DNA of 64,000 bases from Candidatus Hodarchaeota archaeon (GTDB taxonomy: Archaea; Asgardarchaeota; Heimdallarchaeia; Hodarchaeales; Hodarchaeaceae). Shown here piece by piece: positions 3,155 to 52,715 of this stretch. The stretch is taken from contig JAEOSR010000056.1 of assembly GCA_016840285.1 (NCBI GenBank), positions 1 through 64,000 of the forward strand, in the 5' to 3' direction. Both the position numbers and the translations under genes were made by a program. The notes under the pieces were generated by a model, which was not told the DNA's origin, did no database searches, and saw only the letters and a program-made list of their open reading frames with translations. Position 1 is the first letter of the stretch; every line of letters starts with the position of its first letter.

Positions 3155-6100
3155 GTGGAGGAGCTTCTGGCAGAGTATGAAATGTTTGCACATGAGCTCA
3201 AGGAATTTTTGCCTTCGGATACTATTCTTACTTTAGAAGAGGCCAAAACTGAAGCAGAAGACTTTGCCGAGGATGATGAAAATAACTCGGGTGATACTAT
3301 AAGTATAGACCAGGATACGTTGGTTTTAGAGGCAAAAGTCGAGGTTCAAGAGGTTGAAGAGGAGGAGCTAGAGACTTATGAACTCATAGATACGGAACAA
3401 GAGATCCAAGAAGAGGAGTTAGAGTCAATAAACCAAGAAGAAGTGAACACAAGTATCGAAAATGACTTGTGCGAAGAGGTTGAGGAAGAATCACCGATTC
3501 TAGAAGAAGACCAAGAAATTGAGATCTCGAATATCAATCAAGAAATAGAGGAACTGACTGCTGAAGTAGAAGTAACTGAAATAGAAATACTTCAACTGGA
3601 AAAAGAGTTAGAGTCAATTATTGAGGAAGAGCTAATAACAGAGCAGGTTAAGGAGATTGAAGATGAAGAGTCCACTGAGGAAATACACCAAGAAGAAAAT
3701 CAGATAGAGGAGTATGGTAATGTTACCGATACTGATTGGGAAGCATCAGAGGAGCAAGATCATTGTGATCAGGAAATATTGGATAGTGAGGCCATAGATT
3801 CAACTTCGGTTGAAGTAATAGAACACGAAGAAACGATTTTTGATCAGGAATTAGAGGAAAATCCACTGATTACTCTTGAATATCCGTTTGATGAAGAATT
3901 TGGGGAGCAAGATTATACTCAAGCATCAACATTCGATCAGGAATTGGAGGAAGCTCATGCTAATGAACTTGAATATCAAACTGAGAAAGAGAATGTTGAA
4001 GATCTAGAAAAGCTAGAGGAGACATTAGACCAAAATGAGATAGTAGAAACATCTGAAATCACAGAAAATGAAATACAGTCACAACAATCCATTATTTCAT
4101 CAGAAAAGGCTTATTCAGAAAGTGAGATAATCCAACCAACTTTCCATACATCCACTTCTCAATTAATAGAAATTGCTCATACAGACAATGTTCCTCTACA
4201 ACAAACATTCGGTTTGTCATTCAATGATGAAAATATTCATGATTTTTCTCTTAGCTTACTAGGTAATGAGATAAGTGCCTTAGAGAAAATGTTGGAAGAG
4301 GTTGAATCACCACGTTTGTTAACACAATTTCATCTACAAATAGAGGACGATTTAAAGCAGTCTCTTGAGGTTCAGACTTCTCAGACTATTCATGAACATG
4401 ATAGCTCATTAGAACTTGTTTTTCAAGGGCCCACGATTCCTGAGCCACCTCCGTATGATTTTCAAGCTGAATTAGAAGAACTAGAGGAAGAACAGAATAA
4501 TTTAACAAGAAGGCAACTTCTAAAATCGTTTGAAAAGGCGCAATGGATCCAAATGACTGCTAATTTAGATTTAGCAAAGCAGAAATTACCTGTAATACAT
4601 ACACGTACATCAAATACTCAAAAAGCTGATCTTCTTGAAAAAAAAACAAAACAGACTTTTCAGAACAAGCAGATTTCCCGAAATAAAGAAGATACAGAAG
4701 AACAAATCATAGATGACCATGCTCCTCAACAATCCTCCTCTACTGAAGAAGAGATAAATTTAGTTGTTAAACATGAATCATCTACATTAAGGATTGGAGA
4801 AAAAAACAAGCAAAATATCAAACAAAATACTTTTGAAATAATTAATGAAAGAAGAAATCTTCTGATCAGCAAAGTAATGGAAGCTGGCCTTAATTCACTT
4901 AAGACAGGAAAAAAGTCTTACATTAATAGTTTCATCACTTATTGGAATCAAATTGTAGAGTTAGGAAAACCACCTACAAAAGAGATGGTCGTACTATATA
5001 ATGAAATAAAGGGTAAACATGGAGTGTCTCTATATGTAATCAATTATAAAACTGATCCAGGATATAAAATTAAAGATTACGGTGATTTGCCTAGTATCGT
5101 TGATGAGTGGTTTGCTAGAAAATATACAACATATTTTAAAGAATGGTTAATTTTTAGAGATCAATTGGAGGGAAAGAGTGCTTTTATCAAAGTATGGGTA
5201 AAGGGTTCAAAGAATAGAGAAAAAGAATTATTCTTAATCCCCAATTATGAAGCAACAAAATGGAATGCGAATGGAGTTCCAATGGAACTTTGGAAACCCA
5301 AAAGGTCCTTCATCTTGAGATCGGGACTCTTTACTAAAGTAAAATTTCCACCTCGATATGAATATGATCCAAATAGAAGAAATACTGTTCTAATACGCCA
5401 TCCAGTTAAGGAACGTATAATTAATCGCTTGGAGAATGTAGTTGATAGCAATGGAAAACCAATATATCGATATCCAAAAGAGGTAAGCAGGCATACTTGG
5501 TTTAATTCAGCTTATCAAATAAAATTCGATGAAAATCTAATTGATGAATATTTAGAGGGAATCTATTGGCAAAGAATTAAGACAGGACGAACTCGAGCAG
5601 AGAGATCGTCATTAAAACTTTCAGTTATCAATTATTACGAAAGACTTGGGGAGCGTATTACTTCTCTTACAGATAACATGATCGAATCTGAATTAAATGA
5701 AGCCTTTGAAATTTACTTAGTTGATGAATCAAAAGCTTTATGGGGCATCATTTCATTACTTAATGATGTTGTACCATTACAAATGGTTACAACATTTGAT
5801 GAATGGATAGATAAGTTGAAAACAGAGTTTGGATCTGAAATAGCTAGGATAATTCAACAAGCTAAGTTACAAAATTTAAATAAAATTCCAATAACCTTTA
5901 AATTGACTGATGCAGATAAGTATCAGGGAGGAAAAACGCTCACACGTGATCCAATAAGATTTTGGGTAGAGAAGTATACAGATGGGATCTCTGGCTTTGC
6001 AAAAGCATTAATTGGAGATAACCGCGTCCGAACAGCATTAGAAGAGTTTAGTAGAGCGGTGGATGGAGTTTTTCCATTAGATTTGCCATTAAATGTGACA

Positions 6101-6739
6101 ATAGAGACAAATTGGGCACATAACCCTACCCGTGTTAATATTGTTACTATACCAGATATTGTTGTCAAAGACAAAATAGGCCGAAAATTCTTGGCTTCTG
6201 AAATAGTGCAAAATAAAATCTTGCGAGAAATTGGAGATAACAATGGTCAAATTTCTCCTCGTGATTATTTACTTGAATATTTAAAGACAATGGGCGAATA
6301 TGACCCTAATAATTGCTCAATTAAAAATATTCAACTTGAATTTATACCTAGAGGTAATACTTTAGGTGGAAGGACTGATATAACTAAAGATACAAATGTA
6401 GTGATAATTTCTTATTGGGGAAATGATGTACCTCAAATGGGTCGTGTTCCAGAAATTATTCAGTCATTAAGGATGATAAGATATTTGGACAAAATTGAGA
6501 ATCAAGAAATTATCAAGCAAAAGGTAGTTAATAAACTCAAACAAGGAATTGGTGCTCTGGGATTTCAAAGAAAGATGGATGAGAATACATCAAGAGTTAT
6601 TCAAGAGTTAACTGAGTTAACGAGTGCAGACGGAGAGGTGACTTTTTCTCGAGATTCTTTTTTAGAATTACTTCGCAGATATGGAATGGGCCTAGTTTCA
6701 AATAATTATTCACTGGATGATAAGGAAATCAACCCCTGA
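3155..6739 (+). CDS. Giant acidic protein of unknown function, in frame with the upstream AAA ATPase
   Basis: The protein has at least 1194 residues. The first ~450 are extremely rich in Glu, Asp and Gln, with an imperfect repeat (FDQELEE...LEY occurs twice). A charged coiled-coil-like linker follows. From ~560 to the end the sequence is ordinary and probably folded (for example QLEGKSAFIKVWVKGSKN near 665), but I recognise no family and no catalytic motif. It has no membrane segment or signal peptide. The GTG at 3155 is the first conventional start, yet it has no ribosome-binding site, and the same acidic coding character continues upstream without a stop to the TAG at 2990-2992. Translation may therefore begin at a non-standard codon or by readthrough. 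Its position suggests a partner or substrate of the ATPase. Confidence 0.75.
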   Translation: MEELLAEYEMFAHELKEFLPSDTILTLEEAKTEAEDFAEDDENNSGDTISIDQDTLVLEAKVEVQEVEEEELETYELIDTEQEIQEEELESINQEEVNTSIENDLCEEVEEESPILEEDQEIEISNINQEIEELTAEVEVTEIEILQLEKELESIIEEELITEQVKEIEDEESTEEIHQEENQIEEYGNVTDTDWEASEEQDHCDQEILDSEAIDSTSVEVIEHEETIFDQELEENPLITLEYPFDEEFGEQDYTQASTFDQELEEAHANELEYQTEKENVEDLEKLEETLDQNEIVETSEITENEIQSQQSIISSEKAYSESEIIQPTFHTSTSQLIEIAHTDNVPLQQTFGLSFNDENIHDFSLSLLGNEISALEKMLEEVESPRLLTQFHLQIEDDLKQSLEVQTSQTIHEHDSSLELVFQGPTIPEPPPYDFQAELEELEEEQNNLTRRQLLKSFEKAQWIQMTANLDLAKQKLPVIHTRTSNTQKADLLEKKTKQTFQNKQISRNKEDTEEQIIDDHAPQQSSSTEEEINLVVKHESSTLRIGEKNKQNIKQNTFEIINERRNLLISKVMEAGLNSLKTGKKSYINSFITYWNQIVELGKPPTKEMVVLYNEIKGKHGVSLYVINYKTDPGYKIKDYGDLPSIVDEWFARKYTTYFKEWLIFRDQLEGKSAFIKVWVKGSKNREKELFLIPNYEATKWNANGVPMELWKPKRSFILRSGLFTKVKFPPRYEYDPNRRNTVLIRHPVKERIINRLENVVDSNGKPIYRYPKEVSRHTWFNSAYQIKFDENLIDEYLEGIYWQRIKTGRTRAERSSLKLSVINYYERLGERITSLTDNMIESELNEAFEIYLVDESKALWGIISLLNDVVPLQMVTTFDEWIDKLKTEFGSEIARIIQQAKLQNLNKIPITFKLTDADKYQGGKTLTRDPIRFWVEKYTDGISGFAKALIGDNRVRTALEEFSRAVDGVFPLDLPLNVTIETNWAHNPTRVNIVTIPDIVVKDKIGRKFLASEIVQNKILREIGDNNGQISPRDYLLEYLKTMGEYDPNNCSIKNIQLEFIPRGNTLGGRTDITKDTNVVIISYWGNDVPQMGRVPEIIQSLRMIRYLDKIENQEIIKQKVVNKLKQGIGALGFQRKMDENTSRVIQELTELTSADGEVTFSRDSFLELLRRYGMGLVSNNYSLDDKEINP

Positions 6740-43834: not shown

Positions 43835-44857
43835 GTGATTGAGATTATTATTCTCGCATTTGCAGTGCTAATGGCCTTTGGAGTTGCGTTTGCTGCAGGT
43901 AGTAATGATGAGATGATGGCGCCAGGAGTAGCGGCTGGTGCTTTCTCTTTGCGAACAGCTGTAATTTTAGGAGCCATTTTTTCAGTTCTAGGTGTATTTC
44001 TAGGGGAAGCTGTTGTAAAAACTTTAGGTGACGATTTAGTAAAAGGCAATAGTTTGACGGATTCAATGATCATTACTGTTTTGCTGGTTATGGTAATCAT
44101 ACTTGTGGGACATGTGACAATTATGCCCCTACCGATATCTACTACTCAAACGGTGGTTGGTGCAATTGTAGGAGTCGCTATTGCGGCTGGTTTGACCTAT
44201 TCCAAATGGGGAATAGAAGCTGTTGATTATGGGGTGCTTTTCTTAATCTTTCTGGGATGGATTTTAAGTCCCATGATTGGTTTTATCGTTGCTGCTACAG
44301 TTCATTTATGGATAAAACGTCTTGATGAGTCAGTTGAAGTCACAGGTAGACAGAAAAAAGATCGCGCATACATATATGCTTTAGGACTATTTTTAATTAT
44401 TAGTACTGCATCAAGGGCTGGAAATGACGTAGCAAACTCTATCGCGCCAGTTTTGGGTTTAAAAGTACTCGAAGGTGAATCTATAACAACAAACATGTGG
44501 GTAATGATGCTGATAGGCGGCTTTGGCATGGCCTTAGGCCTAATAATAATAGGAAAAATAGTAATTCGGGTGGTAGCAAAAGAACTTGTTGAGATGAATC
44601 CAACTTCTGGACTTTCTTCAATGATTTCGGTTACACTTATAATGACAATAGGTACACTTCTAGGATTCCCCTTAAGTGGAACTCATGTTCTAATTGCAGC
44701 CATGATTGCTGTTGGTTGGGCTGAAAGGTCACCTATTCAAAAACAGATGGTGAAGATGATAGTTATATCATGGATAGTAACTGTGCCCATCGCGGCTGTA
44801 CTTGGAGGAGTGATGTGGTTCGGTGTAAACTGGCTATTTATTGGATTAGGATTGTGA
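43835..44857 (+). CDS. pit: PiT-family inorganic phosphate transporter
   Basis: 340 residues with about ten membrane segments. The two inverted signature motifs are present: GSNDEMMAPGVAAGAFSLRTAVILG near the start and RAGNDVANSIAPVLG in the middle. PLSGTHVLIAAMIAVGWAE belongs to the second repeat, and PLPISTTQTVVGAIVG to the first. It imports phosphate by cation symport. GTG start. The 3' end overlaps the convergent cdc6 gene by 12 bases. Confidence 0.9.
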   Translation: MIEIIILAFAVLMAFGVAFAAGSNDEMMAPGVAAGAFSLRTAVILGAIFSVLGVFLGEAVVKTLGDDLVKGNSLTDSMIITVLLVMVIILVGHVTIMPLPISTTQTVVGAIVGVAIAAGLTYSKWGIEAVDYGVLFLIFLGWILSPMIGFIVAATVHLWIKRLDESVEVTGRQKKDRAYIYALGLFLIISTASRAGNDVANSIAPVLGLKVLEGESITTNMWVMMLIGGFGMALGLIIIGKIVIRVVAKELVEMNPTSGLSSMISVTLIMTIGTLLGFPLSGTHVLIAAMIAVGWAERSPIQKQMVKMIVISWIVTVPIAAVLGGVMWFGVNWLFIGLGL

Positions 44858-46120
44858 AGAATCCTCAATCAAATGGTTTAAGGACTGAATGATCTCGTTC
44901 ACAGGGATATCACGAACTCGTATAGTTGTGACCCGCCCCATAGATCGTCCGTTTTTATGACGATTCTCTACCTCTTGTTGAATGATACCTAATCGTCCTA
45001 AATCTTTCAGGTAGGCCCATAATTGGGTTTGGCGCCTCGCGCGAACACCTGCTTCCTCACAAACGCTCATATAGGAGTTTTTTACCTCTGGAGTGGTCAC
45101 AAATGGTCGATTATCGCAGAGAAGTTTGGCAATGCTTAATAATAGTAATTTCTGATGGGTGTTCAAATCTTCAACAACTGATTTTTCAATGGGAAGTACA
45201 GAAACAACTGCTTTGCGTACATGCTCAACGGTGACTTGATCTTTTTTTTCTCGGTCAGCTAGTTTCGCAGCTCGCCATAACAATTCAATAGCAAATCGTG
45301 CATCTCCATATTCTTCTGCTAAGCCTGCAATGACTTCAAATAGATCATCATCATAGCTATCTTCACGGAGTCCAAGCTCAGCACGGGAGTTCACAATATC
45401 GAAAAGCTGGTTTCTAGTGTAAGGAGGGAAAGCAATGAAATTTCTACCAAGGGACGAGATGGTTGAGGAATCAAGATGATAGCGAAAATTCTTGTCTCGG
45501 GTGCAACATAATAGGTTGAAACGAGACTCTGTTTGATTACCAGGAAAATTAGAAAAATGATCATTATGAATCTTAGTGGTCTCTCCTTCTTCAATCCGCG
45601 ACAAAGCATAAAGAAAATCAGTTCGCTCATCAGGGATCAGGTAATCAATTTCATCTAATACAAGTAGAGACACCAAATTTTGCTCATAGAGTAGTAAAGA
45701 AAACATTCTCAGCAGCTCATCAACTGAGAAGCCTCGTAAAGGAAACCCAGGAACTAGTTGTCTTAAAACCGTTGTTAAGATCAAATGTGGAGTCTTGGTC
45801 TTGCGACAATTCACATGGAAAAATCGAAAACTGGGGTCTCCTGGTTTATGCTCTGCTTTTAGATATCTGGTAAGATCTGCTCCGAATGCCCTAGAAATAA
45901 CCGTTTTTCCAGTACCCACTGGTCCGTAAAGCACAACTTTCCTGCTGCTCGCCGTAGGTTCAGTAATGATCGATCTAAAATAATTGACCAGGCTTTTCAT
46001 TTCCTCCTCCCGGTGCCAAAGGTGATTCGGAATGTAATTAGATGCAAACACCTTTTCTCCAGACTCTGTGAACACTGATTGAAAGTCAGTAAAAAGAGCA
46101 GAAAAATTTGTACTAGACAT
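44846..46120 (-). CDS. cdc6: Orc1/Cdc6 replication initiator
   Basis: 424 residues. AAA+ core with Walker A GPVGTGKT (~70), Walker B SLLVLDEIDYL (~165), sensor LLCCTRD and a lid helix block (EEYGDARFAIELLWRAAKLA). A winged-helix C terminus (~330-410) binds origin DNA. The family binds origin recognition boxes and loads MCM, and origins usually lie beside the gene. Here the ~70 bases upstream end in an IscB element, and the original upstream region would be beyond it. The ATG at 46120 has AAGGTTGTGA upstream. Confidence 0.9.
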   Translation of the reverse strand: MSSTNFSALFTDFQSVFTESGEKVFASNYIPNHLWHREEEMKSLVNYFRSIITEPTASSRKVVLYGPVGTGKTVISRAFGADLTRYLKAEHKPGDPSFRFFHVNCRKTKTPHLILTTVLRQLVPGFPLRGFSVDELLRMFSLLLYEQNLVSLLVLDEIDYLIPDERTDFLYALSRIEEGETTKIHNDHFSNFPGNQTESRFNLLCCTRDKNFRYHLDSSTISSLGRNFIAFPPYTRNQLFDIVNSRAELGLREDSYDDDLFEVIAGLAEEYGDARFAIELLWRAAKLADREKKDQVTVEHVRKAVVSVLPIEKSVVEDLNTHQKLLLLSIAKLLCDNRPFVTTPEVKNSYMSVCEEAGVRARRQTQLWAYLKDLGRLGIIQQEVENRHKNGRSMGRVTTIRVRDIPVNEIIQSLNHLIEDSSQS

Positions 46121-46191
46121 ATGGTTCACAACCTTCGTCGCAAGGAAACCCAGTTGATTTATCTCTGGGAGGAATTACGACAATATTCTTT

Positions 46192-47484
46192 CTATTGGAA
46201 TGATAACCCTTTTCCATGGGTTCTCAACTCTATTTTTTTAACACTAACACTTTTGATTTTCTTTTGCTGGTTAGGAGTATATAGCATAACACGGGTGCCT
46301 TTACAATGCGTTCCTTTGACTCGATATAATCCATTATTATATTTAACATGATCATTGCGTTGATAGGGATATCGTTGCTTACGTATTGCTGGTTTGAATC
46401 TTTTTCTGTTCAATTGAAGACACCGATTATTTCGGCGAATCTGTTTGACTCGATAAACTTTTGAGAACGTTTGACTCGTACCACTAGCAATGACAAACGC
46501 ATCATTAACGTGTGATTTAGATAGACCTAGTCGTGTTCGCTGATATTTCGTACGATCGCCATAGGTATACTGACAATCTGATCCTAATAGATCGATCATC
46601 TTCTGACGAACAATATTCATGAACGTCGCTCCTTTGAAGGATTCCGTCGCTTTCTTCTGGATTTCCAGCATTCTTTTTTGTAGTTTCAGACTACACTCGT
46701 CAGCCATCTTATTCCCTTTTTTCTGATTGCATTTCCGACACGCAATCGTGAGGTTATCAATTCTATTGTTTGAAATTTTAGATATAGGTATAATATGGTC
46801 AATTTCAAGTGGTATATCCGATTTCCCACAATAGGCACACTTATGTCCCCATTTTTCTAATAGATAATTTCGGACAGTATAGCCAAACAACGTGCCTTGT
46901 TGATATTCCACTCCTTGAATCTTCGGATTCTGCATTTTCTGAGTATCAAATGAAGCAACTTCAACAATTGTTTGTGCTATAGGCAGAATCTGTTTGATCT
47001 TCTCCACTAATCGGATATGTGTATCTAACTTATGTCTAATGCTGGGTGCTAACCAGCTTTTCAGTTGTGTCTTTTTCCAATGGTCATGTCGTGGTTTACG
47101 ATACCATAACCTACTTCTCCGATTTCGACGATACATTCGTCGGTCGTCTAATTTCTTGGAAACATCCATTCGAAGTACTACTTCGCCTGCAATTAGTTCT
47201 TTCTTTTCAGTAATCGCTGAAAAACCAATCTTGGAATAACCCGCATCAATCCCAAGTGTTATAGGTTGCTTTGTTTCTTCAGTCGGATAGTTCAATTGTA
47301 TTGTGAATGGTGTTCGTCTTATTACCTTCGCTTTTTTATCTTTTAATAATATTCGTGCTTTACATGGTCTTGTTGGCATGAGTGGTTGCCCACGCATGTT
47401 CAACACATAGACAGGTACCTCTTGTGAGTCCTGTCTCTCCCTTTTCAGGGGTAGGTTCTCTTCGCCAAGGTTATTAGTTATCAT
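46192..47484 (-). CDS. iscB: IscB RNA-guided HNH/RuvC nuclease
   Basis: 430 residues from ATG 47484. Domain order is that of IscB, the ancestor group of Cas9. A PLMP domain (VYVLNMRGQPLMPTRPCKARILL) opens the protein. RuvC-I GIDAGYSKIGFSA (Asp ~80), an arginine-rich bridge helix RRMYRRNRRSRLWYRKPR and RuvC-II VEVASFD (Glu ~175) follow. The HNH domain is CAYCGK..LEIDHIIP..CRKCNQKKGN and RuvC-III is HVNDAFVIAS (His ~325, Asp ~328). A C-terminal target-motif-reading region (YPYQRNDHVKYNNGLYRVKG) ends it. All catalytic residues are intact. The frame stays open to TTG 47601, but that part overlaps the probable guide RNA. No TnpA transposase is near. The nuclease would cut DNA matched by its omega RNA. 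Confidence 0.88.
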   Translation of the reverse strand: MITNNLGEENLPLKRERQDSQEVPVYVLNMRGQPLMPTRPCKARILLKDKKAKVIRRTPFTIQLNYPTEETKQPITLGIDAGYSKIGFSAITEKKELIAGEVVLRMDVSKKLDDRRMYRRNRRSRLWYRKPRHDHWKKTQLKSWLAPSIRHKLDTHIRLVEKIKQILPIAQTIVEVASFDTQKMQNPKIQGVEYQQGTLFGYTVRNYLLEKWGHKCAYCGKSDIPLEIDHIIPISKISNNRIDNLTIACRKCNQKKGNKMADECSLKLQKRMLEIQKKATESFKGATFMNIVRQKMIDLLGSDCQYTYGDRTKYQRTRLGLSKSHVNDAFVIASGTSQTFSKVYRVKQIRRNNRCLQLNRKRFKPAIRKQRYPYQRNDHVKYNNGLYRVKGTHCKGTRVMLYTPNQQKKIKSVSVKKIELRTHGKGLSFQ

Positions 47485-47725
47485 CTCGCAGGATGCACTG
47501 AGTCTTTCAACTCTGTTTAGCAATCCACTTGAAGAACGTGAGACTAGAGAAGCATCTCCATGTGTGTTCTCCAACTCTACTAATAACTTAGATATCGTCA
47601 AATTTCTTTAACCTCTCTTAGGCTAATCAACTAATTGCTCTTACTCCTCACGGTGCAAGCCCAGATGCTTAAACGCTGGGTAATTGACATTTCTGTCGGA
47701 TTTTTTTCATCACTTTCGCCGTAAG
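47400..47725 (-). ncRNA. Probable omega RNA (HEARO-type) of IscB
   Basis: IscB guide RNAs lie directly upstream of the nuclease gene and may overlap its 5' end. On the minus strand this stretch shows GACA-GAAA-TGTC (47686-47697), a stem with a GNRA loop. CCCAG...CTGGG (47660-47680) is a second stem, followed by a CTTGCACCGTGAGG stretch. A long-range pair ACTAATAAC/GTTATTAGT (47470-47478 with 47579-47587) closes a central domain that reaches into the open frame. The order of compact hairpins and a long-range stem agrees with HEARO/omega RNA architecture. Ends are approximate; the guide would be the bases 5' of the scaffold, near 47720-47745. Confidence 0.6.
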
Positions 47726-48071
47726 TATCTACATATTCTAGAAATACATTGGGATACTTTAAACGTTAAGGAGACTAATTTCCAAGTAATAGTGGCAATG
47801 TATTACCTTAGTTTACACTTTTTTACCAGTACAAAAACCTGGCGACTTTTATTTTAAGAAGAGATGTGATTGATAATGAAAATCAGAACATTACGGTTGA
47901 GGGTCGTATGATAGTATAGTTCTGCTAGTGTTATTACTGATTAATACTAATATCTACTCTTATTATAACTATAGAGATCATTATTTCCTTTGGTAACCTA
48001 TTGTACCTAAGAATGAGTGTTCATTGAAAGTGAAAGCTAAGGACCTATTCAGTGAGAATTATTCTTCTTTT
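47726..48071. other. Gene-free region between IscB element and histidine kinase, with inverted repeats
   Basis: This is the region that would have been upstream of cdc6 before the IscB insertion, so a replication origin is conceivable. AATACATTG (47743-47751) pairs with CAATGTATT (47796-47804), and AGTATC (47724-47729) pairs with GATACT (47753-47758). The remainder is AT-rich. I do not see a repeated G-rich origin recognition box. Confidence 0.3.
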
Positions 48072-51000
48072 TCAGAATTTTTGTGATTCTACAGTATTTG
48101 TTCTCGGAATCTCGACAATAAAGGTGGCTCCCAAACCTAGCCCTTTACTTTGTGCTGTAATTCTTCCTCCGTGTGCTTCCAGTGTTTTCCGACATAGATA
48201 CAATCCGATACCTGTACCAGTCGCTGAAAATTCAGTCGGGATACTTACGAATTGGTCAAAGATAACCTCCAAATTTTCAGGTTCAATCCCCGCGCCATTA
48301 TCAGAAACTTCAATTTTGATATAAGATTCTTCTATCTTTGATGTTACTCTTATTCTTCGATGATCTTTATCCGTTTGTTTAATAGCGTTACCAACAATAT
48401 TGTCTAACACCTGTTGCAACCTGTGTGCATCCCCAGCGATGATTATTGATGAATCTTCTAAGCATCCTTGGAACTCAAACTGATTTCCTAATAGTTGATG
48501 GTAAGGTTCTAATGTACCCTGCAGAAAGTCACACAAGTTCATTGAGGTTTTTTCTATTTCAAAACTACCTCGTTCAATTTGGCCGATTGCACTCACTTTG
48601 CTTGTTAATCGTTCTAATCTATCTAAATTGCTTTTCATAACACCTAAAATATTCGTGATCCGTTTCTGGGCTAAATCATTGAGATGTTCAATTAAAAAGT
48701 CGCAGTATCCTGTAAGAACGGTCAATGGGGTTCTGAGTTCATGGCTGGTCATCCAAACAAAGCTATCACGTCGTTGTTCTAGTTCTTCTCTAGTTTTTTC
48801 TGCTCTCATTCGATCAGTGATGTCAGTAGTAATAACACCTAGTCCTTCACCTACTTTGAAAGCTCGAACAGAAAAGTACTTATCTCCAATTCTCGGAGTA
48901 GAATAGATGTCATCGCTATCATATGGAATTCCTGTTTTTATTACCTCCAAATACTTGTCAAACCTCTCAATGTTCCGAAGAGCGGGGAAAATATCTAGAA
49001 GGTTCTTCCCTACAACTTCCTCTTTAGATAATCCAAGCCCTCTCAACCCAGCTTTGTTCATATCAATGAAATTCAAGTCTGAATCAAGGAGGGTAAATCC
49101 GTCGGTGGCTGACTCCATAAACTTTCGTAACCTTTCTTCACTTTCTTTTAATGCATCTTGAACTCGTTTACGATCAGTGATGTCTCTGACAATCGCTAGA
49201 ACTGCATCTTCCCCCTGATAATGAATCATTCCAAGGTTTAATCCCACTTCTAATGGAGTCCCATCTTTCCTAATTAGTTTTGAATCATAAATAAGAGGAA
49301 CTTTCTTACCAGCTAATCGTGCCTTACGACGCTTATTGATTTCAGGAAGGACTTCAGGATGAACAACCTGTGCATACGGCGTGTTTAGGAGTTCTTCAGT
49401 TCTATATCCAAGCAACTGTGCAAATCGCCGATTATTGAATATAATTTTGTCGCCTAACTTGCCACCCTGGACAATTACAATTCCGTCTTGTGCTTGTTCC
49501 ACAAGATTTCGATATTTAGCCTCACTTTCACGTAAAGCTTCTTCTGTTTGTTTTCGCTTAGTAATGTCCCTAAGGATCGATAATAATGAAATACTTCCAT
49601 CTAAATTTCTAAAAGGTGTATCAATTATGTCATAGGTTTTTTGATTTTGAGTGCGAGTCTTTTCCCAACGAACTGTTTTCCCATCAAGAATTTCTTTTAT
49701 TGTGCACCAAGAACACATCTTATCAAATTTATTAAAATATTCATAACATGTTCTCCCTTCTACAGAACCAAATTCTCTCTTAAGAGCATCATTGACGAAT
49801 TCAATTTCAAATTGGGAGTTCACAATATATATTCGATCGTTGGTTGAGTTTAAGATATTGTAGAAATTCTCCCTTTCATTACGTAATAGTTCTTCTGCCT
49901 TTTTTTGCGGCGTTATATCAATCGCAATACCACCAAGCAACCGTTCTTTATTTTTTCGCTTAATTGGGAATTTGTATGTTTGGTAGGTGTTTGCAACATT
50001 ATGTTTATCGATTAATTCTTCCGTTATAATCTGTAATCCTTCATTCAAAGCTTTTTGATCATCAGCTATCATTTTTCGAGCAGTTTCTTCTGGGAACAAT
50101 TCCATGACGGTTTTTCCTATCCACTTCTCTCCTCCAAAGACATCTTTCAGATATTTATTCGCATAAAGCGTTACTGAATCCTTGTCTTTAATGAATGCTG
50201 CAGCAGGTAGATGATCCATGAATTGAGTAAATAATTCTTGGTTTTCCCTTAATGCTTCTTCGGCTCGTTTTCGATCTGTGATGTCTTGAAGAGTACCGTA
50301 AACACCTCTCCTATTTTGTTTCTCATCATAAAACTTCTGAATTGATTCTTGAATCCAATGGATATTACTGTTTTTATCTATAATACGATACTCTCGTTGA
50401 GTTGCTCTCTGAGATGAGGACATAAATTTTTCAACATCATCCCCTACCCATTGGCTATCATCAGAGTGGATTAGTTGATTAAACACGATTTCTCCAGAAA
50501 TGAATTCCTCCTCGGTATACCCAGTTATTTCTTCTATTCTCCCAAGGAAGAAACCTGCTGAAAAATCCTCATATCCTTTGAACGCAATGCCTTGAAAATT
50601 CTCTAAAAAGGATCGATACTTTTCCTCACTCTCTCGGAGTGCTTTTACCATCTCAATGCGATCAGTAATATTTACTATAGAAACGATAAGTCTTGTAAAA
50701 GTCTCTTCGTATCCAGGAATAAGAGTTAGTCTAACTAAAACATGAATCTTATCGCCTTCTAAGGTGTAATTGACTGTTTCAATTTCAAATGTTGGTTTTC
50801 CTTCTAAGAGAATTATTTCTTTAAATGCCAAGAGAGTTTCTTTCCCGAAGACAACTGACATATCTTGAAGTAGATCTTCTTTCCTCTTAGCCTTATACAG
50901 TTTTAATGTAGCAGAATTTATATCAAGTATTCTTACCTTTGTGATAATTTTCTTAACTTCTCCAGGATGAATTTCAAAGTATTCTCGGAGATTTTTTATT

Positions 51001-52715
51001 CCATTTGACATTAATTTATCAATGTACTGTTTAACATTTGAGCCGTCCAACTCCCACAAACTAATTGGAGACTCATTAAACAACATTCGATACCTTTCTT
51101 CACTTCTCTGGAGTTGTTCTTCTGCGATCTTATTCTGCGTTATATCTTGCATTGTAGAAAGGATTACCTTTTGGCCTCCCTGCTCCACTATTTGAGCATT
51201 GAGTACAACATAGTATTCTGTTCCATCTTTTCTTTTGCGTTGTACTTCCCAACCTTTAATTGATCCTGAACTTAGTAATTTTTGAAGAGTTATCTTACGA
51301 TTTTCTGGATTAACATATGTTTCATTTAAATCAACTATTGCAAGTTCATCAGCCGAATATCCCATAATTTCACACGTTTTCTGGTTAAAGGCAATTGCTT
51401 CTCCATCAACCGTGGAAATCCCAATACTTATGGGAGCTGATTCAAAAAGAAGTCGGTATTTCTCCTCTGATTCCTTCAGGGCTTCTTCTACTTTTTTCCT
51501 CTCCGTGATGTCTCTGAGGATACTAATTAGCTTAAAATCATCGTTCTCTTCAATAATTCTTCCTGAAACTGACATCGGAACGTAATGGTCATCTTTATGC
51601 TTTGCTCTGTATTCAAAATTATATATTTGTTTTCCTGTGAATACTTTTTGGAAAACCTCTAAGGCTCTCCCCATATCATCTGGATGGATAAAGTCAAATC
51701 CGCTCTTTCCAATTTCCTCCTCTGGTTGGTAACCAAGAACTTCAACCACTTGAGGACTAATGAAAGTGAAATTCCCCTCTGAATCTAATTCTATAACAAT
51801 ATCAGAAAGGTTATCTATTAAACTCCTATACCTCTCTTCACTCTCACGTAATGCTTCTTCAGTTAAAACGCGATCAGTAATATCTTCAACACTCCCTTCA
51901 TAACAAATAATTGTTCCTTTTGAATCCTTTATAGCTCTTGCATTCTCCCTGATGTATATTGATGTCCCATCAGAATTCTTTAGCTCAAATTCTAACCCTT
52001 TAACTTCTCCCTTTGCGTTAATTTCCTCCAAAAAACGATTTCTTTGATAATTTCGTCTAGTTGCCAGCTTATCAGGATCCAACGATAATAAATCTTCAAA
52101 AGAAGACAAGCCTACCTGTTTGACAAATGTAGGATTCGCTGCGAGAAATTTATGATCGGGTGTGCTACGATATAAACCAATCGGTATGTTTTCGAATAAT
52201 GATCGATATTTTTCTTCACTTGTACGTAACTTCTCCTCCACTTCTTTCTGTTTAGTTATATCAGTCCAATAGCCCACAATTTCGATGGGGTTCCCCTGTT
52301 TGTCTCGAATAAGAGAAGCTTCGTCCATCATCCAAAGGTAGGAGCCATTTTTGTGTTTAAAACGATAGGTCTCACTATAATGTTCGCTCTGAACTAGACC
52401 CTCAAATATATCTACTGATCGTTGTCTATCATCAGGATGGATACCGTTTATCCAGAAACTTGGATTATCTATAAACTCATAAGCTTCATAACCAATAATT
52501 TCCTTTACGTTCTCGCTCATAAAGGTTGTAGGGAAGTTACCCCAGGATTCACAAGAGAATATTATTGCTGGACTGGATTTAAGCAGAAATTGGAGTCTTG
52601 TTTTTGTTTTTAGAAAATCTGCTTCTGTTTTTCTTTGATCAGCAATTTCTAATTCAATTTCTCTCTTTACATCCTCGGGGATGTCGTCTCTTTGTAATAG
52701 GGATTCGAGAGTCAT
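48072..52715 (-). CDS. Cytosolic sensor histidine kinase with about ten PAS domains
   Basis: 1547 residues without a membrane segment. Repeated PAS/PAC units end in the usual coupling helices (DITKQKEVEEKLRTSEEKYRSLF, DITDRVLTEEALRESEERYRSL, DITERKKVEEALKESEEKYRLLF and so on). I count ten such units over residues ~40-1305. The kinase core follows: phospho-acceptor box TSHELRTPL (~1325), N box QQVLDNIVGNAIKQT, G boxes DNGAGI and GTGIGLYLCRK. Stacked PAS domains usually sense redox state, light or small ligands. No response regulator is adjacent. Units differ in sequence, so they are not recent copies. Confidence 0.88.
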   Translation of the reverse strand: MTLESLLQRDDIPEDVKREIELEIADQRKTEADFLKTKTRLQFLLKSSPAIIFSCESWGNFPTTFMSENVKEIIGYEAYEFIDNPSFWINGIHPDDRQRSVDIFEGLVQSEHYSETYRFKHKNGSYLWMMDEASLIRDKQGNPIEIVGYWTDITKQKEVEEKLRTSEEKYRSLFENIPIGLYRSTPDHKFLAANPTFVKQVGLSSFEDLLSLDPDKLATRRNYQRNRFLEEINAKGEVKGLEFELKNSDGTSIYIRENARAIKDSKGTIICYEGSVEDITDRVLTEEALRESEERYRSLIDNLSDIVIELDSEGNFTFISPQVVEVLGYQPEEEIGKSGFDFIHPDDMGRALEVFQKVFTGKQIYNFEYRAKHKDDHYVPMSVSGRIIEENDDFKLISILRDITERKKVEEALKESEEKYRLLFESAPISIGISTVDGEAIAFNQKTCEIMGYSADELAIVDLNETYVNPENRKITLQKLLSSGSIKGWEVQRKRKDGTEYYVVLNAQIVEQGGQKVILSTMQDITQNKIAEEQLQRSEERYRMLFNESPISLWELDGSNVKQYIDKLMSNGIKNLREYFEIHPGEVKKIITKVRILDINSATLKLYKAKRKEDLLQDMSVVFGKETLLAFKEIILLEGKPTFEIETVNYTLEGDKIHVLVRLTLIPGYEETFTRLIVSIVNITDRIEMVKALRESEEKYRSFLENFQGIAFKGYEDFSAGFFLGRIEEITGYTEEEFISGEIVFNQLIHSDDSQWVGDDVEKFMSSSQRATQREYRIIDKNSNIHWIQESIQKFYDEKQNRRGVYGTLQDITDRKRAEEALRENQELFTQFMDHLPAAAFIKDKDSVTLYANKYLKDVFGGEKWIGKTVMELFPEETARKMIADDQKALNEGLQIITEELIDKHNVANTYQTYKFPIKRKNKERLLGGIAIDITPQKKAEELLRNERENFYNILNSTNDRIYIVNSQFEIEFVNDALKREFGSVEGRTCYEYFNKFDKMCSWCTIKEILDGKTVRWEKTRTQNQKTYDIIDTPFRNLDGSISLLSILRDITKRKQTEEALRESEAKYRNLVEQAQDGIVIVQGGKLGDKIIFNNRRFAQLLGYRTEELLNTPYAQVVHPEVLPEINKRRKARLAGKKVPLIYDSKLIRKDGTPLEVGLNLGMIHYQGEDAVLAIVRDITDRKRVQDALKESEERLRKFMESATDGFTLLDSDLNFIDMNKAGLRGLGLSKEEVVGKNLLDIFPALRNIERFDKYLEVIKTGIPYDSDDIYSTPRIGDKYFSVRAFKVGEGLGVITTDITDRMRAEKTREELEQRRDSFVWMTSHELRTPLTVLTGYCDFLIEHLNDLAQKRITNILGVMKSNLDRLERLTSKVSAIGQIERGSFEIEKTSMNLCDFLQGTLEPYHQLLGNQFEFQGCLEDSSIIIAGDAHRLQQVLDNIVGNAIKQTDKDHRRIRVTSKIEESYIKIEVSDNGAGIEPENLEVIFDQFVSIPTEFSATGTGIGLYLCRKTLEAHGGRITAQSKGLGLGATFIVEIPRTNTVESQKF

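Follow-up and report, generated by a model that had tools for sequence, protein, structure and literature searches.

An IscB-omegaRNA element inserted just before orc1/cdc6 in a Hodarchaeota archaeon

Introduction

IscB is a relative of the ancestor of Cas9 and an RNA-guided, DNA-cutting protein; ISC transposons were reportedly called bacterial and archaeal by Kapitonov in 2015. According to the accessible parts of the respective papers, a TAM of NTGA was measured for IsrB (PMC9581776) and one of NTAAA for OrufIscB (PMC13180657), the TAM of OgeuIscB is NNRR (PMC9640706), and cleavage by TnpB on plasmids favours retention of the element (PMC11870625).

In this study, we analyzed a 64,000-nucleotide stretch of a Candidatus Hodarchaeota genome (assembly GCA_016840285.1, contig JAEOSR010000056.1; hereafter the window), which contains an IscB element directly before an orc1/cdc6 gene (Table 1). 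First, the locus resembles that of OgeuIscB (PDB 7xht) in its PLMP motif, its split RuvC with an HNH domain, a HEARO RNA directly 5' of the open reading frame, the position of the guide at the 5' end of the RNA and an NNRR-compatible flank 3' of the target, whereas its archaeal lineage, an open frame that runs into the RNA and insertion at a start codon set it apart, and its activity is a prediction. Second, an NTGA-type flank and the same kind of RNA are found with IsrB (accessible part of PMC9581776), but IsrB lacks the HNH domain that the window protein has in full. Third, a flank-derived guide and the predicted attack of the nuclease on the empty site recall the IS200/IS605 elements with TnpB and their gene-drive-like spread (accessible part of PMC11870625), although here the nuclease is an IscB with a 5' guide and a 3' TAM, and the element contains no TnpA. 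Finally, a locus in Heimdallarchaeota CSMAG_1930 has a related IscB with a HEARO-like RNA but also a broken Y1 transposase immediately downstream. The window provides a natural archaeal IscB with exact ends, a natural guide and a natural empty target in a sister genome. Since it comes from the Asgard lineage, which is close to eukaryotes, it offers a ready system in which OMEGA homing could be tested in a non-bacterial setting.

Table 1. Positions of the element, its parts and the adjoining host features in the window
Feature	Positions	Strand	Details	Basis
Whole IscB-omegaRNA (ISC-type) element	46130..47688	-	1559 bp	Empty site, HEARO model start, right-end profile
omegaRNA scaffold (HEARO, RF02033)	47451..47688	-		Covariance match, covariation
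Predicted guide	47689..47708	-	Host flank directly 5' of scaffold; adjacent 16 nt are 47689-47704	
IscB open reading frame	46192-47601	-	469 aa	Open frame, NF040563
Open-frame extension within omegaRNA	47431..47601	-	57 codons	Codon-position counts
IscB protein core	46192..47430	-	PLMP, RuvC, bridge helix, HNH, C-terminal region	Profiles, alignment, dN/dS
Right end with hairpin	46130..46191	-	3' of IscB stop; outer stem GTCG...CGAC, inner stem CCCAG...CTGGG	Sequence
Right flank GTGAAC	46124..46129	-	Candidate TAM (NTGA class); overlaps possible cdc6 GTG start	Empty site; RTGA(A) consensus of 41 sites
orc1/cdc6 gene, entered at its start	44846..46129	-	Start GTG 46129 or ATG 46120	Cdc6_lid, Cdc6_C
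Upstream block with TA-rich boxes	47726..47790	-	Near-identical in window, G019 and G017	Alignment

Results and discussion

IscB protein and omegaRNA

An initial annotation, made from the sequence alone, had described an intact IscB with its omegaRNA, and both parts were identified by profile searches. The protein matched the guided_IscB family (NF040563) with 364.9 bits, well above the curated NCBI cut-off of 175, and its Pfam domains were PF14239 (RRXRR) and HNH. The PLMP motif is located at the N-terminus of the core (P73-L74-M75-P76), and the RuvC and HNH catalytic residues were all present, as had been claimed: D119, E214, H269, H364 and D367 in the numbering of the 469-residue frame. Their counterparts in OgeuIscB are D61, E193, H247, H340 and D343 (accessible part of PMC9640706), a correspondence established by aligning the motifs with those of two IscBs in the PDB, 9k30 and 11hx. 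All five catalytic columns, comprising the RuvC-I, RuvC-II and RuvC-III residues and the HNH histidine, were invariant in a 34-row protein alignment. The reading frame is unbroken, and its core evolves under purifying selection: differences from L269 showed a clear excess at third codon positions (65/47/150 for the three positions), with dN 0.14, dS 0.90 and dN/dS 0.16, and the comparison with L001 gave dN 0.20, dS 1.98 and dN/dS 0.10. Identity as a Cas9 was considered and rejected, the score against TIGR01865 (49.9 bits) being below the NCBI cut-off of 100.

The HEARO covariance model (RF02033) matched over its full length (1-211 of 211) with 94.8 bits (gathering score 83; E 4.2e-18), which was the sole Rfam match at gathering score within the window. 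The lack of a covariance hit, named initially as a refutation of the annotation, was thus not observed. This RNA lies directly 5' of IscB, overlaps the open frame and ends ahead of the protein core. The GNRA loop and long-range stem that had been read on the minus strand upstream of IscB were recovered, the GNRA-type loop being GTGA, and the structure covaries. In an alignment of 28 hand-chosen omegaRNA copies, from which the consensus structure was itself derived, 94.6% of cells were paired, compared with 34.5-43.6% when the structure was slid along the alignment, and both sides had changed in 36 of the 53 pairs (11-21 when slid).

The open frame continues from the core into the omegaRNA, an extension that is also annotated for many database proteins. 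One explanation would be a real N-terminal domain of 57 codons, that is, a dual-coding variant of IscB. However, differences in the overlap were distributed over codon positions as 13/12/16, 23/14/21 and 12/12/11 in three comparisons, and this absence of codon periodicity implies that the sequence of the extension reflects constraint on the RNA and not a function of the protein. Furthermore, standalone RNA copies without IscB gave the same "protein" similarity, 11 of the 12 near-full-length matches listed for genome G003 were interrupted by a TAG early in the matched stretch (residue 53-56), and the accessible part of PMC13180657 describes how IscB orthologues were trimmed of N-terminal insertions if a start existed further downstream. 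Dual coding therefore appears extremely unlikely. In several relatives, a start codon immediately precedes the conserved first strand of the protein (ATG in P0020; TTG in L049, L015 and L057). This codon is missing in the window (47404-47490); thus, translation would begin either within the omegaRNA or at a GTG further on, the latter giving a shorter protein.

The loss of this start position, together with the absence of TnpA, would suit a dead or dying passenger in which RNA and protein are still present but expression is gone. We regard this as improbable, given the unbroken frame, the covarying RNA and the low dN/dS against L269 and L001, although the last value reflects the lineage and not only its most recent step.

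Element boundaries, empty site and predicted guide

Sequence comparison places the host among the Hodarchaeota genomes, in agreement with the Asgard origin that had been assumed: the Cdc6 flanking the element was 94% identical to its orthologue in the sister genome G019, which belongs to the same order, probably Hodarchaeales, as the Hodarchaeota genome G001. Comparison with G019 revealed the insertion. The alignment ran up to 46130 and resumed at 47684, and the two G019 pieces overlapped by 6 bases (L131 10702-10707). Read in the orientation of the element, the window has ...GAAAAAAATCCGACAGAAAT, then the element GTCAATTACCC...CGACGAAGGTT, and then the right flank GTGAACCATATG, whereas in the G019 empty site ...GAAAAAAATCCGACAGAAAT runs straight into GTGAACTCTATG. 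This junction defines the element as 46130-47688, without a target-site duplication and with a two-base ambiguity of the ends due to a GT that occurs both at the left end and in the right flank. The element first marked at 46192..47725 is real, but its limits had to be corrected, with 47688 as the first position of the RNA scaffold. The left end coincides with the first base of the scaffold, at the start of the HEARO model, and the right end scored 41.4 bits against a right-end profile that had the window itself among its seeds. Exact insertion without target duplication and ends conserved between the window and related copies are the properties of an ISC transposon of the IS200/IS605 superfamily, and the layout is that of OMEGA/HEARO elements, with host flank (the predicted guide) at the 5' side of the RNA and a TAM-like flank at the other side.

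The element lies directly before GTGAAC at the start of orc1/cdc6, in the same sense as the gene. The near-identical block upstream, with its TA-rich boxes, is probably the ancestral cdc6 promoter, now placed upstream of the omegaRNA, but replication-origin sequence is a further possibility. Elsewhere in the window, a 1547-residue histidine kinase with many PAS domains (48072-52715) gave broken matches in G019 that cross-matched among its repeats, which suggests repeat turnover, and a 1194-residue open reading frame (3155-6739) had no Pfam match at E 0.001.

The guide was assigned to the flank directly 5' of the scaffold by analogy with IscB (accessible part of PMC9640706). The proposal that a guide and its match could be located at an empty site in relatives was borne out, since all 20 bases are identical in G019 (20/20). 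When the last 14 nt of the guide followed by NTGA were searched at up to two mismatches, the only match in G019 was the empty site, with zero mismatches. A reversed-pattern control also found one place in G019; thus, the weight rests on a perfect match at the right spot. As this spot is the orthologous flank of a sister species, the match also follows from orthology, and alone it is no proof of guide use.

Besides G019, G017 is also empty at this cdc6 site, though its flank has diverged; the insertion therefore appears recent. This bears on the suggestion that the IscB has been kept, as a domesticated regulator or defence nuclease of the host, directed at cdc6 or at foreign DNA. Purifying selection on the core, a place before a replication-initiator gene and the lack of a TnpA nearby would all be compatible with such a role. 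On the other hand, the catalytic residues are intact, related copies are placed alike at other genes, and the element looks young, with no insertion in G019 and G017 and no IscB in 12 of the 14 genomes of the order. Domestication is thus not indicated, and we consider it very unlikely.

Proposed mechanism

We consider it highly probable that the window contains a complete non-autonomous ISC/OMEGA element, recently inserted at an RTGA before cdc6 and predicted to home and to be transcribed from a host promoter. Insertion at this RTGA most likely occurred by single-strand transposition of the IS200/IS605 type, with a transposase that would have acted in trans. The host sequence left of the element would then form the 5' guide of the omegaRNA. 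Since this guide is host flank, the IscB-omegaRNA complex should cut the empty cdc6 allele, where the guide is followed by GTGAAC as the putative TAM, and should spare the occupied one. Cutting of empty alleles would result in the element being retained or copied by homing. Because the element has the orientation of cdc6 and separates the gene from its upstream region, the host cdc6 promoter probably transcribes omegaRNA, iscB and cdc6 together, and cdc6 might be affected by this arrangement.

Placement of related elements at start codons

To describe the right boundary of related elements, we built profiles from 15 seed ends and applied them to the sequences that follow 92 unique RNA copies, a set from which 29 rows below 60 bits and three viral-scan rows had already been excluded. 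Right ends were found for 61 copies (seven of the other 31 had less than 200 nt of sequence), and subtraction of eight weak ends and one double left 52 sites, one of which (L005) has a bacterial title. With a tolerance of up to 2 bases, ATG or GTG was present at the right boundary in 41 of these 52 sites, at the exact profile end in 35 and shifted by one base in six. The RTG was followed by A in 40 of the 41, and by a second A in 33, so that most read RTGAA. This boundary motif, RTG(A), agrees with the NTGA TAM of IsrB and the NNRR TAM of OgeuIscB. Some right ends carried ribosome-binding-like GGAGGT or GAGGT stretches and others did not. The right flanks, compared pairwise in an earlier 50-copy set, were independent except for one 85-base match.

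An open reading frame of 60 codons or more (45 where truncated by the end of a contig) began at the boundary RTG in 25 of the 41 sites, and 22 remained as strict start-codon sites when the joined flanks were also required to have no more than 25 open codons upstream. The same test was passed by about 10% of intergenic RTGAA controls (40/390 in the Asgard set and 8/78 in the G007 set) and by 153/1571 and 42/415 of RTGA/RTGG sites, the control loci being stretches around the elements rather than whole genomes. The excess was significant both in Asgard and others (12/24; Fisher p 4e-6) and in G007 (10/17; p 4e-5). The seeds had been selected by visual inspection, and gene starts are frequent among them; without the seed sites, the effect was weaker but still present (5/16, p 0.023, and 6/13, p 0.004).

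Empty sites in relatives were found for all three Borrarchaeum copies tested and confirm the boundary rule. Among alignments covering both sides, the right boundary fell on the predicted base in 3/3, 1/2 and 2/2 cases; the exception starts 24 bases early, and two further matches cover the right side only. The left ends agree within 7 bases.

Eleven of the 52 sites had no RTG at the boundary, and ten of these were ATAAA, a type of end that fits the NTAAA TAM of OrufIscB. Only L025 among the ATAAA-type sites examined had an open reading frame of at least 60 codons starting within 25 nt. Thus, docking is not universal.

Where the start codon itself serves as the RTGA target, an element would land between the host promoter and an intact gene. 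It is possible, though on balance doubtful, that docking on start codons is a strategy of these archaeal IscB elements, by which they would gain host transcription and a guide against the empty allele and leave the gene translatable. If so, the nuclease in the window would be programmed to attack a replication-initiator gene in its start region. Selection against broken genes, the need for a host promoter and a true target preference are all candidate reasons for the bias, and our data do not separate them. Start-codon placement suggests how such elements could become expressed and tolerated in compact genomes. A literature search, in which most subscription papers were outside reach, found no earlier report of start-codon docking by IscB. 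The original HEARO description by Weinberg in 2009 may already mention ATGA/GTGA integration sites.

An overlap between the IscB stop and a following start, observed in 13 of 143 IscB ORFs from the genome and viral scans (the latter with 79 loci), was also considered as a sign of general docking. We set it aside because 4-nt overlaps are common among unidirectional gene pairs (accessible part of PMC10666635).

Transposase genes

The element is filled by IscB and its RNA and, as had been noted initially, shows no TnpA (Y1 transposase) of its own, unlike the autonomous form of ISC transposons; the other ORFs listed are two short plus-strand frames of 81 and 90 aa that overlap IscB. The Y1_Tnp profile had no match in G001, G005, G006, G017 and G019. 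Matches, fragments included, were obtained in G003 (1), G004 (4), G007 (13), G002 (4) and G012 (1, partial). The CSMAG_1930 locus (L018 299-1695 and downstream; G002:C160:3213-4863), in which IscB is followed directly by a Y1 transposase broken by stops, is a degenerate autonomous-type ISC element.

Distribution of archaeal IscB

Within the order, IscB was found in two of 14 genomes (G001 and G012), HEARO in the same two, and neither in the remaining 12. In an 82-row IscB tree, the window belonged to a fully supported clade of seven rows (with P0001-P0004, P0013 and L001), whose named rows are Hodarchaeota or Hodarchaeales except for one 2.3-kb contig labelled Bathyarchaeia. Of these rows, P0001 is a 96% relative and P0002 a 91% relative. 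The enclosing clade of 46 rows included six with bacterial titles (L005, L011, L046, L047, L056 and L079).

The initial annotation had called an apparently functional IscB in an archaeon notable, IscB being mostly bacterial. An exceptional status of the archaeal copy is not supported: archaeal loci were many among the best 80 of 525, from Borrarchaeota, Sifarchaeota, Methanosarcinales, Diapherotrites and Thermoplasmatota, and IscB-HEARO has already been reported from archaeal genomes (accessible part of PMC12988326). As an ISC/OMEGA element, the one in the window is thus ordinary, and there is nothing exceptional about IscBs in archaea. Some genomes contain many copies, with at least 12 near-full-length IscB matches and several RNA-only copies in Borrarchaeum weybense (G003) and at least 56 IscB matches, of all lengths, in SZUA-158 (G007). 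In B. weybense, locus L021 has two adjacent omegaRNAs (4476-4727 and 4916-5151), one solo with an ATAAA flank and one accompanied by IscB with an ATGAA flank. In SZUA-158, two omegaRNA elements (L284/L306; G007:C99) form a nested insertion, in which one has entered about 24 nt downstream of where the other ends on the right.
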